64,000 bases of DNA. Source: Candidatus Nitrosotalea bavarica (GTDB taxonomy: Archaea > Thermoproteota > Nitrososphaeria > Nitrososphaerales > Nitrosopumilaceae). Below the pieces are notes generated by a model that saw nothing but the letters and a program-made list of their open reading frames with translations, was not told the DNA's origin and ran no database searches. The position numbers were made by a program, and so were the translations under genes. Positions 19,530 to 24,788 of the stretch are shown piece by piece (position 1 is the stretch's first letter; every line of letters begins with the position of its first letter). Location: contig NZ_FUYK01000013.1 of assembly GCF_900167955.1 (NCBI RefSeq), positions 1 to 64,000 on the forward strand, given 5' to 3'.

Positions 19530-19567
19530 ACATCAGTCAGTCATAATACATAGAGACTATACACGAC
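19530..19567 (+). other. 3' arm of pre-23S processing helix
   Basis: ACATCAG, TCAGTCATAATA and GACTATACACGAC pair with the 5' arm at 16508-16550. A T-rich stretch (TTTCTTTTTTC at ~19581) follows and could end transcription. Confidence 0.82.
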
Positions 19568-19674: not shown

Positions 19675-19830
19675 ATGAGCAGTATAGAACGTATCCAGAT
19701 TCACTGTGATTGTGGTATCTGTGGGCATCATACAGAAAAAGAATGCATTGAAAAGGAATGCAAGTGTTGTCTTAACTTTCATGTAAGATCTGGACCAAAA
19801 TCCAGTTCCCATGGAAAACGACTAAATTAG
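19675..19830 (+). CDS. 51-aa Cys/His-rich (zinc-binding) protein
   Basis: Contains HCDCGICGHH and KECIEKECKCC, seven Cys and several His in the first 35 residues, consistent with one or two zinc sites, and a basic tail (GPKSSSHGKRLN). First gene downstream of the rRNA operon. Family unknown; no TM helix. Confidence 0.65.
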   Translation: MSSIERIQIHCDCGICGHHTEKECIEKECKCCLNFHVRSGPKSSSHGKRLN

Positions 19831-19934
19831 AATAAACAAAATTTTTGTATTTTATTTTTGTCTAGTGTATATGCTATATTGCAGATCTTGATAATTGCGA
19901 TCAAGGATGTAATGGAAATTGCTTAAACACTAGT

Positions 19935-20141
19935 ATGACTATCTACCATCTAGTGACACAAGGCAGAAAACACCACTGTTCAGAATGTCATCGTAATTTT
20001 GTATGTGATAGTCAACAATGCCTGCTTGAAATTGTTTATCCGTGCTGTAACTGTGATTATAATAATCAGCACATGGTCTCAGAATACGTTAGTGATCCTA
20101 TTCAAGATACTATACTCTGTAAATGTAAAGAAAAGAAATGA
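19935..20141 (+). CDS. 68-aa Cys-rich zinc-ribbon-like protein
   Basis: HHCSECHRNFVC, then YPCCNCDYNN and a terminal CKCKEKK. Pairs C-x2-C(H) and CC-x-C suggest two zinc knuckles. Its stop overlaps the next start (ATGA), so the following ORF may be translationally coupled. Confidence 0.65.
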   Translation: MTIYHLVTQGRKHHCSECHRNFVCDSQQCLLEIVYPCCNCDYNNQHMVSEYVSDPIQDTILCKCKEKK

Positions 20142-20239
20142 AAAAACTACCTGCCAATAAAACTATTCATCTTGGTGGGTTTGACGGTATTCTTGTTGTA
20201 GACAGGGACAAAAAGAAAAAAACGAATCACTCGTATTGA
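20138..20239 (+). CDS. 33-aa basic peptide, coupled to upstream gene
   Basis: ATG overlaps the stop of the previous gene (ATGA). Sequence MKKLPANKTIHLGGFDGILVV followed by a basic tail (DRDKKKKTNHSY). No Cys. Function unknown; the overlap is the main support. Confidence 0.4.
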   Translation: MKKLPANKTIHLGGFDGILVVDRDKKKKTNHSY

Positions 20240-20248
20240 ATTCCTGAC

Positions 20249-20257
20249 TTATATATG
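20249..20257 (+). promoter_or_regulatory. TATA box for the 34-aa gene
   Basis: TTATATATG centred about 25 nt before ATG 20277, the spacing expected for a leaderless mRNA. Confidence 0.6.
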
Positions 20258-20276
20258 TGCCAAACACTGTCTAATC

Positions 20277-20381
20277 ATGTTAAAAGAAATCATTGCAAAA
20301 ATTAAATCTTGCACTTGTAACAAGTCATCGCATAATGACATAAATGCATTAAAAGAATCTGAAGAATCAAAGAAACAATAG
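20277..20381 (+). CDS. 34-aa peptide with CxC motif
   Basis: MLKEIIAKIKSCTCNKSSHND then an acidic/basic helix. A strong TATA box at the right distance argues it is a real gene. The single CTC pair and a His might bind a metal. Unknown function. Confidence 0.5.
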   Translation: MLKEIIAKIKSCTCNKSSHNDINALKESEESKKQ

Positions 20382-20452
20382 GTTCTGAACTCTTTTTTAT
20401 TTTACTAATATGATACAATTAAATCAAATACTGGGAAATTCAATGTTCTGAT

Positions 20453-20686
20453 ATGGGTATTAGAACTGTATCAGAATATGTGCAATTCTATCTGGGACTG
20501 AATATGCAAAATAGTATTAGCCTTTCAAGTTTTGTATATAATGAAAAACTAGTAATGACAAATAAACTGGAAAATAGTTCATTAAAAAAAGAACAGATTG
20601 TGCAAGGACTTAAAATTCTAGATGATCTCTTGACTGAAATACGAACTGTTGGAGAACGTACAGTTATAGAAAAATATACGAAATGA
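20453..20686 (+). CDS. 77-aa protein, unknown
   Basis: Two predicted segments: an N-terminal hydrophobic/aromatic part (VSEYVQFYLGLNM) and a C-terminal helix (EQIVQGLKILDDLLTEIRTVGERT). ATTAAATC at ~20416-20424 could serve as TATA. No recognised family. The 143-nt gap to the next gene contains a CTACG...CGTAG inverted repeat (about 20760-20785) but nothing stronger. Confidence 0.5.
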   Translation: MGIRTVSEYVQFYLGLNMQNSISLSSFVYNEKLVMTNKLENSSLKKEQIVQGLKILDDLLTEIRTVGERTVIEKYTK

Positions 20687-20829
20687 GTAATGGCTAAAAT
20701 TTATTATGATCAGACCATCTCTGGCTAATTTATTGGGGAATCTTTAAGGTACGCAGGAAATCTACGACTGTATGAAACGTAGAACGCCTATTCTAGTGGT
20801 AGGTTGCTCTGAAAGGAAAAAATGGTAAA

Positions 20830-21102
20830 ATGACTGAAGTTTTTTACGAAAAATGTGTTGAAGGTCATTGGTATGATCCGCGGATTAACAAAACAATCGA
20901 TGTTTATGTTATTACATATGAAATGTCCCAAAAGCCAAGTCGAGAGAAAATACTCATACTGGAACTCTTGTCAGATTACAAAGGCGCTGGAGATTTTGAT
21001 TATTTTGACGAGGAGAAAGTTGAATATGAAGAAGGCTTACCAGTGTATCCTCAGATACAGTTGGGGACAGCACATAGAAAGCAGATTAATGATATGTCAT
21101 AA
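20830..21102 (+). CDS. 90-aa acidic protein, unknown
   Basis: Begins MTEVFYEKCVEGHWYD with a strand-rich first half (IDVYVITYEM) and an acidic middle (DFDYFDEEKVEYEEG). Soluble, probably cytoplasmic. No known domain. Another frame (20855-21157) is also open over most of this gene, but its composition is less protein-like. Confidence 0.5.
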   Translation: MTEVFYEKCVEGHWYDPRINKTIDVYVITYEMSQKPSREKILILELLSDYKGAGDFDYFDEEKVEYEEGLPVYPQIQLGTAHRKQINDMS

Positions 21103-21107
21103 ATCAA

Positions 21108-21126
21108 AAATAGATATTGCTAAATC
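21108..21126 (+). repeat. 19-bp repeat, copy 1, at a promoter
   Basis: AAATAGATATTGCTAAATC occurs exactly here and at 22271-22289. In both places it ends 22-23 nt before the ATG of a paralogous small helical gene, so its TAAATC part sits at the expected TATA position. Confidence 0.75.
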
Positions 21127-21149
21127 TTTGATTGGATATGTGATATATT

Positions 21150-21347
21150 ATGAATGAGAAAGAATTTGCAACTGAATCAATTAAATATTATTCTGAGCGA
21201 CTCAAGAAATTGGATTTAATACTTGAAGATAAAAAACTCAATGAACACAAGAGGGTAGAATATCAAAGTGAAAAAGAATATTGTATAAAAAGAAAAAATT
21301 GGTATAAATTTACAAATTTGGAAAAATCAAATCCAAGATCCGTCTAA
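21150..21347 (+). CDS. 65-aa charged helical protein (paralogue of 22312-22482)
   Basis: Long amphipathic helix: MNEKEFATESIKYYSERLKK then a Lys/Glu-rich segment. Aligns with the 56-aa protein at 22312 (MN-K...T-SI--Y-ER---D--L---L---R----SE). Both share the 19-bp promoter repeat. Probably a coiled-coil partner protein; function unknown. Confidence 0.6.
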   Translation: MNEKEFATESIKYYSERLKKLDLILEDKKLNEHKRVEYQSEKEYCIKRKNWYKFTNLEKSNPRSV

Positions 21348-21440
21348 GATCTTTAATTGATGATTAATCTCTAGTAATCTTCAATTCAATCAATTCCATT
21401 AAATCGATAAGGCCAAAAATGCTCTCTATTGTCTCCCAGA

Positions 21441-21632
21441 ATGATTATCCGTATCAGCGGAAAAGATTATTCTGATTTTTTAGTTGAATATGATTTAGAA
21501 AATCTTACTCCTGAAGAAAAAATCAGAGAGATAATAACTTGTTATGTTATTCTAAGAAGAAATAGGAGAAAACTTCCACAAAAGATCTTGAATCCTTTTC
21601 TAAATGCCTTTGAAAGATATACAGGATCTTAA
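21441..21632 (+). CDS. 63-aa protein, unknown
   Basis: ATG 21441 (an in-frame TTG at 21429 is less likely). MIIRISGKDYSDFLVEYDL begins with a beta strand pair, then helices TPEEKIREIITCYVILRRN and a basic C-terminus. Family not recognised. Confidence 0.5.
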   Translation: MIIRISGKDYSDFLVEYDLENLTPEEKIREIITCYVILRRNRRKLPQKILNPFLNAFERYTGS

Positions 21633-21660
21633 CACGGATTTTTCTGACATGCTAATGTAA

Positions 21661-21927
21661 TCATTTTACTTGGACTTTTTGTATTTTTTGAAGCTTTGAT
21701 GTGAGATGTTCTTTTTCTAATGAGAGTAATCGTATTTCATGTTTATCACGTATTTCTTTTAAAGGGAAATGTACCAGCATAAACTCATTAAAATCTTTTA
21801 GTCCGGAATCTTCTAGTTTTTTAAAAGCAATCTCTAATGCCTCAAGTGTATTATCAGTACCACAGTTGCTACATTCAGTATTTCTTAAAATTATAAATTT
21901 ACAATCTCCGTTATAGCACTGTATCAC
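21661..21927 (-). CDS. 88-aa protein with N-terminal zinc ribbon and coiled coil
   Basis: CYNGDC and CSNC (residues ~4-22) form a four-Cys ribbon, followed by a predominantly helical part (EALEIAFKKLED, IRDKHEIRLLSLEKEHLTSK) with coiled-coil character. Convergent with the preceding gene. Could be a small nucleic-acid or protein adaptor. Confidence 0.6.
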   Translation of the reverse strand: MIQCYNGDCKFIILRNTECSNCGTDNTLEALEIAFKKLEDSGLKDFNEFMLVHFPLKEIRDKHEIRLLSLEKEHLTSKLQKIQKVQVK

Positions 21928-22015
21928 ATACTCATACTGCGTAAGAACTATAAAAATAACATCACCTGAATATCAAAACTGGACCTTTTAAAAGATGGAT
22001 TCCTCAACAACGCTC

Positions 22016-22150
22016 AAATTAAAAAAAAGTGTCTCTATGATTATTTGAAAGTAATAAGCATAGAGTGAGCGATAATATTGTTTAGCCGATTAAGTTGGGC
22101 TAGGGTCTGTAATCGCTCGGGAGTAATCTCTGACACTTGTTTTTTGTGTA
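22016..22150 (+). ncRNA. candidate structured non-coding RNA
   Basis: Between two genes lie a long hairpin, CTCTATG (22033-22039)/CATAGAG (22059-22065) extended by TTATT/AATAA across one A-G mismatch, and a second stem GAGCGAT (22067-22073)/ATCGCTC (22112-22118). The second stem encloses TAGCC (22083-22087)/GGCTA (22098-22102). A T-run (TGTTTTTTG, ~22139-22147) follows and a TATA-like TTTTAAAA at ~21986-21993 sits about 25 nt before the start. The double-hairpin plan recalls archaeal H/ACA guides, but no clear ACA placement was found. Strand inferred from the TATA and T-run. Confidence 0.55.
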
Positions 22151-22270
22151 TAACGTAATCAGTTTTAAAGATTAAATCCAAATTATTCTAGTGATGAATC
22201 AATTATAATTTAACACATTTTGGAGTATACCTCTAACTATGATAACTATGATTACTATGACGACTATGGC

Positions 22271-22289
22271 AAATAGATATTGCTAAATC
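22271..22289 (+). repeat. 19-bp repeat, copy 2, at a promoter
   Basis: Exact second copy of the 21108-21126 element, 22 nt before ATG 22312. Confidence 0.75.
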
Positions 22290-22311
22290 ATCGCTTGATG
22301 CAGAAAAGAAC

Positions 22312-22482
22312 ATGAACAAGAAAGACTCTATCACTAAATCTATTGCGATCTACAAAGAGAGGATCAATCAGGTGGATGAAAAACTAAAAGAACAGTATCT
22401 AAGTGATAGACAAAGAACTATGTTTGAATCTGAAAGAAAAATTGCCAATGAAGAACTAGTAAAAATAGAAACCGCAAAATAA
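22312..22482 (+). CDS. 56-aa charged helical protein (paralogue of 21150-21347)
   Basis: MNKKDSITKSIAIYKERINQ then a Lys/Glu/Gln-rich helix (EKLKEQYLSDRQRTMFESE). Same length class, N-terminus and promoter element as the 21150 gene, so probably a local duplication. Confidence 0.55.
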   Translation: MNKKDSITKSIAIYKERINQVDEKLKEQYLSDRQRTMFESERKIANEELVKIETAK

Positions 22483-22539
22483 ATTTTTAATTTATTTTCT
22501 TATATTTATGAAATATTAGTTCTGAAAACTAGTTGTGAA

Positions 22540-22851
22540 TTATTTTGATTTATTACAGATTGGTAATCTACCATGCTCAAATTGGAACGCCGTTAGTTGT
22601 TTTTCCTCTTCGGCCTCTGGGAATAATGTTTCATGATAACAAAATGAGACCGTGGATTTTATGCAAGGATCGTTCGAACTGAGTTGTTCCTTTAATCTTC
22701 CTTGTATGTTGTTACTTGCCCCAATGTATGTTGTTTCATGTTCTGAGCCCAGAAAATATACGCCTGATTTTACAGTAGATCTATCTACATTTTCTTTGTT
22801 AAATGGCATCCAATCAGAATATGACATGATTTGATATTCTATGTCTGACAT
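22540..22851 (-). CDS. stand-alone GIY-YIG domain protein
   Basis: 103 residues. GVYFLGSEHETTYIGASN gives the GIY (as GVY) and YIG strands; IQGRLKEQL carries the catalytic Arg; a Glu-rich helix (FPEAEEEKQLTAFQFEHG) and the terminal LPICN supply the Glu and Asn typical of the family. All core residues seem present, so it may be an active nuclease, although no DNA-binding domain is attached. Role unknown (repair, restriction or RNA processing possible). Confidence 0.78.
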   Translation of the reverse strand: MSDIEYQIMSYSDWMPFNKENVDRSTVKSGVYFLGSEHETTYIGASNNIQGRLKEQLSSNDPCIKSTVSFCYHETLFPEAEEEKQLTAFQFEHGRLPICNKSK

Positions 22852-22958
22852 TTAACAGATTGGGTCAGATGATTTGCAACAATTAGTTGATGCAAAAACT
22901 ATTTTCATCAATAGAAATCATTAGTGCCCTTATTAGGGGTAAACACTAACTATCTGCC

Positions 22959-23162
22959 ATGAATATTTATGATAAAAAATCAGTTCGTTGTTCACAGTGT
23001 GATAGGTTCATAGGGGAAATTGATGCTGATGCAGTTGTAGTTTTACCAAAATGCGGTAGATGTGCAAATCCAATGCCCGAAGGTGATGACAAGGTACAAT
23101 ACATAGTAAGCAAGTTTAACCCAAATCCTAAAAGTCTAATACCTATTGATTCTGTTACTTGA
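22959..23162 (+). CDS. 67-aa zinc-ribbon protein
   Basis: SVRCSQCDRFIGEID and LPKCGRCANPMPEG form a C-x2-C ... C-x2-C ribbon, followed by a short tail. The layout resembles small Com-like or ribosomal-type ribbons. Function unknown; part of the small-zinc-protein island. Confidence 0.65.
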   Translation: MNIYDKKSVRCSQCDRFIGEIDADAVVVLPKCGRCANPMPEGDDKVQYIVSKFNPNPKSLIPIDSVT

Positions 23163-23306
23163 TTTTTTAAAGAAACTTTGGTTTTTTCGCGTAGTGATTA
23201 ATCAAAAATTTAAAATCTAATTTAGAACTTGCTGAAATGTTGCAAAGAGAATCTAAAACCTATTGTATGCAATAGTGATAATAACTAGAATAAAATAAGA
23301 GATCAA

Positions 23307-23417
23307 ATGCCAATTTACTATTGTTTGGACTGTAAAAAAGTGATATTCAGTAAAGATCGTGATTATGGTCCCATCTGTCCTCCCTGCAAACAAAAAAGAA
23401 AACTAGAATCAAAATAA
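23307..23417 (+). CDS. 36-aa zinc-ribbon micro-protein
   Basis: MPIYYCLDCKKVIFSKDR then ICPPCKQKRK: a complete C-x2-C ... C-x2-C ribbon in 36 residues with a basic tail. TATA-like AATAAAATAA at ~23289-23298. Confidence 0.6.
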   Translation: MPIYYCLDCKKVIFSKDRDYGPICPPCKQKRKLESK

Positions 23418-23435
23418 TTTTTATTTCATTGCGAG

Positions 23436-23515
23436 CTGGTTAGTTACTCCAGTCCTTCTCCGACATAAAACATCAGGGATGTGCAAACTCACACTACTCC
23501 ACGGTATTAGTAGTG
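23436..23515. ncRNA. cluster of three hairpins, possible structured RNA
   Basis: CTGG...CCAG (23436-23452), ACATC-AGG-GATGT (23470-23482) and CACTACT...AGTAGTG (23492-23515) follow one another in a G/C-richer intergenic stretch. The 7-bp stem is the strongest. No T-run directly after on the plus strand; strand unknown. Confidence 0.35.
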
Positions 23516-23555
23516 CAATGTTAGATTAAAAGCCTCGTATGGTGATCTGTAGAAT

Positions 23556-23669
23556 CTATGTTAATGCATTATTACATTTTGGACAAGTGGGAGTATCCGT
23601 ACCAATTGATTGATTCTTTCTAGGTCTTGCCTGATATCCACACTTCATACATGATCCAGTTGTCTGCAT
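23556..23669 (-). CDS. 37-aa zinc-ribbon micro-protein
   Basis: MQTTGSCMKCGYQARPRKN and CPKCNNALT: C-x2-C ... C-x2-C with a basic loop, the typical minimal zinc ribbon of nucleic-acid-binding proteins. Only minus-strand member of this local group. Confidence 0.6.
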   Translation of the reverse strand: MQTTGSCMKCGYQARPRKNQSIGTDTPTCPKCNNALT

Positions 23670-23788
23670 GATGATTGTATTAATGATCTTGCTTAAATGA
23701 GTTCTATGATATAATGTGTATTTGACACATTTTTTGTTAAAACCACTTGTTTGTATCTTCTAAATACGGGATTTGTTTTTGATGTGTC

Positions 23789-23890
23789 ATGGAATGTCCC
23801 AAATGTGGTTCTCCTATGGATAAATCTACAAATGAAACAAAAACTATCTACACCTGTTTTTGTTGTAATAATAAAACTGAATCCGAGTGA
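23789..23890 (+). CDS. 33-aa zinc-ribbon micro-protein
   Basis: MECPKCGSPMDK then YTCFCCNNKTESE. TAAATACGG at 23761-23769 fits a leaderless promoter. The stop overlaps the GTG of the next gene (GTGA), suggesting coupled translation. Confidence 0.62.
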   Translation: MECPKCGSPMDKSTNETKTIYTCFCCNNKTESE

Positions 23891-24225
23891 AACTAGTTAA
23901 ATCAACGATTATGCATTATAGGATGATGAAATTTGATGATTTTTGGAATCTGATGGTGACAGAACTTGCAATGCCTAAACAATTTGCAACCCAGACCAAG
24001 CCATTTTCTGCTAAATATTCAGGAGGGAGAATAATGATTTCCACTAGTGATACGTTGTGGCCTATAGATAGATCAGTAATGAGGCAGATTTGGAACAAGG
24101 CTTTGTCTATGCACGAAAAGATGCGATTTATTCATACAAATTATTCCCATGAGAACATTAGGACGTCCTCGTATATTATTTCATTAATGAAGTATTTCAT
24201 CGTAGATGAAATTAAAATGGAATGA
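23887..24225 (+). CDS. 112-aa protein, unknown, coupled to a zinc-ribbon gene
   Basis: GTG overlaps the previous stop; an ATG at 23911 is the alternative start. A helical first part (FDDFWNLMVTELAMP) leads into a strand pair and turn (FSAKYSGGRIMISTS, then WPIDRSVMRQIWNKAL). This last pattern looks like a small DNA/RNA-binding fold but I cannot name the family. Confidence 0.5.
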   Translation: MKLVKSTIMHYRMMKFDDFWNLMVTELAMPKQFATQTKPFSAKYSGGRIMISTSDTLWPIDRSVMRQIWNKALSMHEKMRFIHTNYSHENIRTSSYIISLMKYFIVDEIKME

Positions 24226-24264
24226 TTGTGATAAATATAATAGAGTAGGAATTCATGTTATTAC

Positions 24265-24405
24265 ATGGAAGAAAAAAAGAAGATGAAATCAAATACTGAA
24301 GAAGATTATAACAAAGCTTTGGTCTCGGATGATCCTACTGTTATTACAGAAGAAGAAAAAGAGCGATTGACAAGAGAAGCAATAAAGAAATTTAAATCAT
24401 TATGA
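24265..24405 (+). CDS. 46-aa charged protein
   Basis: MEEKKKMKSNTEEDYNKAL then ITEEEKERLTREAIKKF. Acidic/basic helix, no Cys. Its stop overlaps the start of the next ORF (ATGA), forming a two-gene unit with a membrane peptide. Confidence 0.5.
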   Translation: MEEKKKMKSNTEEDYNKALVSDDPTVITEEEKERLTREAIKKFKSL

Positions 24406-24515
24406 TGAACATAGGCTGGGTAGTACCTGGTATAATTTTACTTGGAGCAATGACTTTCTGTGCAATCAGCTTGTACATCAAAAGAAGAAGAGAGCAAAAT
24501 GTATCGCTCAATAAA
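24402..24515 (+). CDS. 37-aa single-TM peptide
   Basis: MMNIGWVVPGIILLGAMTFC starts one TM helix (~5-25) and ends in IKKKKRAK, giving a positive-inside cytosolic tail. It overlaps the 46-aa gene by 4 nt. Possibly a small membrane regulator or anchor for its partner. Confidence 0.5.
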
Positions 24516-24536
24516 TCCGATGATCTTAATCTCTAA

Positions 24537-24788
24537 TTATTTAGAATGAATATCACCACCTAGGTATTCTCCATTCTCGTCATAAACATAAAACACAGTT
24601 GCTACACTTGGATGGGCTGCATCTTTTGAAGCATTTTTCGTCATTTCTCTTGCTTTCTTGACTGCCTCTTCACGATTGTCAAGGTCTTCTACTATCCAGT
24701 GTGCTTCTCCAGGAATCTCAAACTTTTCTATTCCAATTATTCGAAATTTTCCTTTTGGAGGTTTAAGCTCAGGAAACTCTCTAAACAT
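24537..24788 (-). CDS. 83-aa protein, unknown
   Basis: Basic/Pro N-terminus (FPELKPPKGKFRIIGIE), a strand EAHWIVEDLDN, a helix EEAVKKAREMTKNASKDA and a final hairpin FYVYDENGEYLGGD. A compact alpha/beta fold, soluble. Family not recognised. Confidence 0.6.
   Translation of the reverse strand: MFREFPELKPPKGKFRIIGIEKFEIPGEAHWIVEDLDNREEAVKKAREMTKNASKDAAHPSVATVFYVYDENGEYLGGDIHSK

Follow-up and report, generated by a model that had tools for sequence, protein, structure and literature searches.

A colinear neighborhood of short genes behind the 23S rRNA gene

We analyzed a 64,000-nucleotide stretch of Candidatus Nitrosotalea bavarica DNA (contig NZ_FUYK01000013.1, positions 1 to 64,000; hereafter the window), part of a 1.55-Mb Candidatus Nitrosotalea genome, in which a cluster of very short genes at 19675-24788 lies directly behind the 23S rRNA gene, whose 3′ end is at 19539. 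The reading that we favor, with moderate confidence, is that this cluster is a colinear Nitrosotalea neighborhood of separate short genes in compact form and that embedded in it is a small RNA gene, RNA2 (23500-23432, minus strand), whose product would act in trans and which is shared with tailed viruses. A preliminary description, made from the sequence alone, had noted many short open reading frames (ORFs) behind the rRNA operon and argued that they were real genes, not noise. The ORFs are present, the largest listed in 19675-24788 being 112 amino acids (aa) long, and selection and synteny bear out the argument. Orthologues of 18 of the ~20 ORFs were found in other Nitrosotalea genomes with gene order conserved, and the ratio of nonsynonymous to synonymous substitution rates (dN/dS), computed across up to twelve loci, was mostly 0.02-0.3, as under purifying selection. 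The closest relatives mostly share 84-100% amino acid identity, while synonymous sites vary freely. Judged by this conservation of ORFs and frames, about 18 real, conserved short genes are confirmed. DNA similarity to the cluster was detected in 24 of 24 genomes of the same genus (first sample) and in 0 of 16 genomes of the order that belong to other families.

Naming the genes by their coordinates in the window, the order in genomes G003 and G006 is 20453, RNA1 (a second conserved RNA-like element), 22312, a GIY-YIG domain gene on the opposite strand, 22959, 23307, 23789, 23887 (start corrected below to 23926), and 24265; most of this colinear order is kept in G014. In N. devanaterra, the 23S rRNA gene is followed by 19675 (137 nt on), 20453, RNA1, the GIY-YIG gene, 22959, and 23307 and, after a gap of ~53 kb, by 23789, 23887, 24265, 24402, and 24537. 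The series that takes 5 kb in the window thus spans ~73 kb there, with long genes in the intervals between core genes. We propose that the short genes stand mostly singly or in pairs and do not form one operon; the long accessory genes which relatives carry between the core genes are absent here. The preliminary description had also suggested an accessory region. This holds for 19935, 20138, 21150, 21661, and 23556, which were found in the window clade only, but not for the eleven genes that recur in other Nitrosotalea genomes (19675, 20453, 22312, the GIY-YIG gene, 22959, 23307, 23789, 23926, 24265, 24402, and 24537).

The position of the cluster right behind the 23S rRNA gene, in the window and in close relatives, and the colinearity of the core genes would also be expected of a small-protein system with a function linked to the ribosome or to stress, whose components cooperate and share expression with the rRNA operon. 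We consider such a system improbable, because the strands are mixed, several genes have a TATA-like element of their own, the gene distributions are very unequal, and the N. devanaterra series extends over ~73 kb. Moreover, in the closed genome G006 the block lies at 140-148 kb and the 23S rRNA gene at 990 kb, ~840 kb apart, and linkage to the rRNA genes is therefore not essential; the ribosome-linked interpretation did not survive these comparisons. Relatives of the GIY-YIG gene, which occur in 39 of 151 genomes of the order, lie ~8-12 kb downstream of the 23S rRNA gene, in antisense orientation, in three genomes of other genera, so the neighborhood may be partly older than the genus. Overall, the earlier observation was confirmed and its interpretation was supported in part.

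A GIY-YIG domain, variable gene content between the core genes, and the occurrence of RNA2 in viral contigs could also be accounted for if the cluster were a mobile element that had integrated there, or what remains of one. The chances of this appear slim to us: the neighborhood is colinear genus-wide under purifying selection, its base composition is the same as that of its surroundings, matches of its proteins to phage families were weak at best, and relatives of 22959 were not found in viral contigs. A plasmid search with 22540-23162 found nothing. Scans of the cluster proteins against NCBIfam and PADLOC likewise gave weak matches only, and curated profile libraries gave no confident family for any of them except a borderline GIY-YIG match. 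The cluster is ordinary in kind among archaeal small proteins, though its density is unusual, and it contributes ~18 conserved small-protein families that curated profiles leave unnamed save for that match.

RNA2, a candidate small RNA with a cloverleaf fold

The preliminary description had mentioned two structured intergenic segments, giving no coordinates. Two conserved RNA-like segments were found, at 22018-22215 (RNA1) and 23432-23500 (RNA2), and these are probably separate RNA genes, which that description had not recognized. RNA2 appears to be a small RNA gene inside the cluster that is served by a promoter of its own: a covariance model and covariation define a 69-nt cloverleaf with its 5′ end at 23500, preceded by the TATA box CTTTTAAT (23525-23532, minus strand; start at -32). 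Among Nitrosotalea genomes we found 22 copies of 67-73 nt in 19 of 37 genomes, and in 20 of the 22 a TATA 8-mer starts at -30 to -34, with a variable spacer. The covariance model detected RNA2 in 69 of 250 genomes of the family, representing 8 of its 22 genera; relatives outside Nitrosotalea are 55-57 nt long and mostly have a CTWTAAG-type box ~31 nt upstream (read by eye). In a sample of 201 genomes of the order, the 22 genomes with a match were all members of the family. The maximum copy number was five, at separate loci of one genome from another genus (G356).

Covariation carries the case for the fold. In the alignment of 43 copies, pairing was kept in 97.8% of pair cells, and two-sided changes occurred at nine pairs in 58 cells (cells count sequences, not events), compared to 22.1 ± 4.6 cells in shuffles, of which 0 of 500 reached 58; slid controls gave at most 9 cells with such changes. 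The closing pair is G-C, U-A, or A-U, the adjoining pair changes from A-U to G-C, and a pair of the T-like arm is G-C, A-U, or C-G; several of these changes look independent. RNAalifold alone, with no input structure, also gave a cloverleaf as the consensus. The complement between loops, AGUU/AACU, is invariant except for a change of U-A to U-G, which is consistent with a loop-loop contact but is not proof of one. At the level of sequence comparison, these data support RNA2 as a structured RNA.

RNA2 resembles tRNA (RF00005) in its cloverleaf with 2-nt and 1-nt linkers and a 4-nt variable stretch, in a T-like arm that runs straight into the closing strand, and in the complementarity of its D-like and T-like loops. 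It differs in that the closing stem has 3-5 pairs rather than seven, the T-loop motif is absent, and the central arm is variable. A tRNA identity was rejected, since ARAGORN and Rfam were negative and the acceptor-like stem has only 3-5 pairs; a known Rfam family was rejected for want of a covariance model match, and a riboswitch or mRNA leader because the downstream gene differs between genomes. We found no small RNA of this kind described in the literature searched.

RNA2 beside the portal gene of tailed viruses

Four viral contigs also contain RNA2 (L225:2756-2811, L226:844-903, L227:3023-3079, and L228:3369-3426), always in divergent orientation to a portal gene and 215-240 nt upstream of it. 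Of the portals, that of L225 fits phage portal models, and the remaining three share 63-73% identity with it or among themselves; that of L227 is a distant relative (22-24%) of Haloarcula tailed-virus portals. Tailed viruses carry the same RNA beside their portal gene, and the shared RNA suggests that they infect ammonia oxidizers. BLAST did not find RNA2 in named phage records.

This fixed site beside the portal, together with the patchy spread of RNA2 and its occurrence in as many as five copies in a host genome, raised the question of whether RNA2 belongs to viruses, as a packaging-related RNA for instance, and its host copies are relics of past infections. We regard this as unlikely, since the host copies still have their promoter at a constant distance and their pairing is conserved, and the flanks retrieved for the host copies examined contained no portal relative. 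The neighbors of host copies differ between genomes, and these changing contexts and the patchy distribution suggest that RNA2 has moved between virus and host. The packaging RNA of phage phi29 is a structured small RNA whose gene lies near head and packaging genes. RNA2 is like it in being a structured small RNA encoded near such genes but differs in size and fold, and it is also present in hosts without viral neighbors. Tailed-virus genes have been reported in these archaea as part of integrated mobile elements of Thaumarchaeota (PMC6563490); unlike the present case, no RNA2-like RNA and no rRNA region are mentioned in the part of that report considered here.

Taken together, the sequence comparisons show that the short genes are real and colinear, that RNA2 has a conserved structure and promoter geometry, and that hosts and viruses both have copies of it; we infer that RNA2 is transcribed into a tRNA-like cloverleaf that probably acts in trans. 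Several points weigh against the reading as a whole. Half of the genes are clade specific, the RNA2 alignment was fitted to the model, and the host of the viral contigs is deduced only through RNA2. RNA2 is unremarkable in folding energy (mean z, -0.4), and its own minimum-energy folds contain one third of the consensus pairs. RNA1 shows little covariation and conflicting evidence for its strand. More tentatively, and at a level of confidence that falls well short of that for the neighborhood itself, RNA2 could represent a new class of tRNA mimic exchanged between archaea and tailed viruses that acts on a tRNA-related process or on virion packaging. If this were true, translation, tRNA processing, and tRNA-targeting defense would be candidate processes. 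Little is known of RNA biology in the ammonia-oxidizing archaea, a very abundant group; a covarying RNA common to hosts and to tailed viruses, beside the portal gene in the latter, is a testable lead on archaeal host-virus interaction.

RNA1

RNA1 (22018-22215) was found as a single copy in 25 of 37 Nitrosotalea genomes and in one genome of the sister genus in the 151-genome sample of the order. Its helices are nearly invariant, with 98.9% of cells paired and one two-sided change, and covariation support is therefore thin. The plus strand is favored by G-U pairs (98.9% paired versus ~87%, by our own count, on the other strand) and by the consensus energy (-28.0 versus -20.8). A T-run at the low-coordinate end and, at the high-coordinate end, a conserved TATA-like element favor the minus strand. 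Mean folding z-scores were -2.2 (plus) and -3.1 (minus). The outer helix of the fold in the window was not kept in relatives, and RNA1 matched no curated covariance model in Rfam. Because the neighboring gene on the plus side differs between genomes, RNA1 is more likely to be free-standing than to be a leader. The ORF at 22041 on the minus strand, which the preliminary description had not listed, lies inside RNA1 and was rejected as a gene (dN/dS ~0.4-1.15, with hardly any synonymous change).

Corrected starts, overlaps, and promoters of the short genes

Two gene starts were moved. The 112-aa gene from 23887 was rejected, as many relatives carry stops upstream of M14, where conservation starts; the gene begins at 23926, and the GTGA overlap at 23887 is therefore spurious. 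The ATGA overlaps are genuine: that of 19935 with 20138 is kept in four relatives and that of 24265 with 24402 is also retained. The lone GIY-YIG domain previously described is real, but its gene starts at M9 (22827) rather than at 22851, because several relatives carry a stop upstream of M9.

As for the reported TATA boxes, 11 of 17 starts have their best TATA-like 8-mer at -28 to -30, with ~4 expected by chance, although this bin was picked post hoc. The mean score was only slightly higher than in control windows (5.63 versus 5.37), and the claim therefore holds up for only some of the genes.

Cys-pair proteins and the GIY-YIG protein

The seven ORFs for which Cys pairs had been noted (19675, 19935, 21661, 22959, 23307, 23556, and 23789) all have at least two pairs, and the two families that were aligned, 22959 and 19675, have invariant Cys residues. 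Several of these proteins are probably small, putatively zinc-binding proteins. Haloferax volcanii has one-domain zinc finger micro-proteins (PMC6562870, PMC10716476, PMC11241148) that are likewise archaeal, <~70 aa long, and many per genome, with two Cys pairs. The proteins of the cluster differ in that seven of them are grouped and their zinc binding is putative, and the resemblance is an analogy, not homology. Size and two conserved Cys pairs were both found in 22959 and 19675; 21661, with 88 aa, is too long. On this basis, regulator or adaptor roles are likely.

The 51-aa Cys-rich protein of 19675..19830 (plus; dN/dS 0.04-0.05) begins 135 nt past the end of the 23S rRNA, and its relatives are spread across the family (42 of 151 genomes sampled from the order). 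The zinc-ribbon-like protein of 22959..23162 (plus; 67 aa, four invariant Cys) is multicopy in the genus, with paralogues up to 92% identical on contigs 13 and 15 of the same genome; among its 30 named loci one is from Nitrosopumilus, and others include Ca. N. devanaterra (LN890280.1). The remaining Cys-pair proteins are 19935..20141 (plus; 68 aa, dN/dS 0.10-0.27, start codon missing in two relatives), 21661..21927 (minus; 88 aa, 0.16-0.18), 23307..23417 (plus; 36 aa, 0.00-0.06 where computable), 23556..23669 (minus; 37 aa, 0.07-0.16), and 23789..23890 (plus; 33 aa, 0.03-0.05 in close relatives, about ten loci).

The GIY-YIG protein (22540..22827, minus; 95 aa, dN/dS 0.04-0.11) has the GVY and YIG motifs and the single-domain size of this family (PF01541, DUF7508), but its match to PF01541, at 22.8 bits, is barely over the cut-off of 22.6. 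The Tyr is invariant, whereas the first-helix Arg of NIxxRL, which we take to be the catalytic residue, is replaced in two genomes (L015 and L016), and catalysis is therefore uncertain.

Other genes of the cluster

The 77-aa protein of 20453..20686 (plus; dN/dS 0.16-0.31), usually upstream of RNA1, has relatives in 25 genomes of the 151-genome order sample, every one within the family. Its structure was modeled as four helices (predicted local distance difference test score, 85), an all-helical model with no significant match in the PDB. The 99-aa protein of 23926..24225 (plus) occurs in 5 of the 151 genomes, in Nitrosotalea and the sister genus only, and its model, a poor one, had no significant PDB match either.

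On the plus strand, 20138..20239 encodes 28-33 aa (dN/dS 0.06-0.16), and 20830..21102 encodes 90 aa (0.05-0.17); the latter has a paralogue in the same genome (contig 13) and an in-frame stop in one relative. The 63-aa ORF at 21441..21632 (plus) is the weakest coding case (0.16-0.48), its frame being broken in one relative (G001); homologues occur at five further loci. At the far end, 24265..24405 (plus) encodes a charged 46-aa protein (0.02-0.08), 24402..24536 (plus) a 44-aa protein with one membrane span predicted from its sequence (0.13-0.20), and 24537..24788 (minus) an 83-aa protein (0.05-0.11). The proteins of 21150..21347 (plus; 65 aa, 0.03-0.06) and 22312..22482 (plus; 56 aa, 0.12-0.24) cross-match and are paralogous, small, helical-looking proteins on either side of RNA1.

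The 34-aa ORF at 20277..20381 (plus; dN/dS 0.15-0.28, few changes) has a TATA box, CTTATATA, at -29. The ORF and its promoter (20239-20381) occur at unrelated loci in several Nitrosotalea genomes, in the manner of a mobile micro-gene. Among the genes inserted between core genes in relatives, we noted a fluoride riboswitch (RF01734; L028:6253-6331, L029:8112-8190, and L032:13119-13197), which in G006 is followed by genes for a secreted protein and for a small membrane protein whose sequence reads as CrcB-like.

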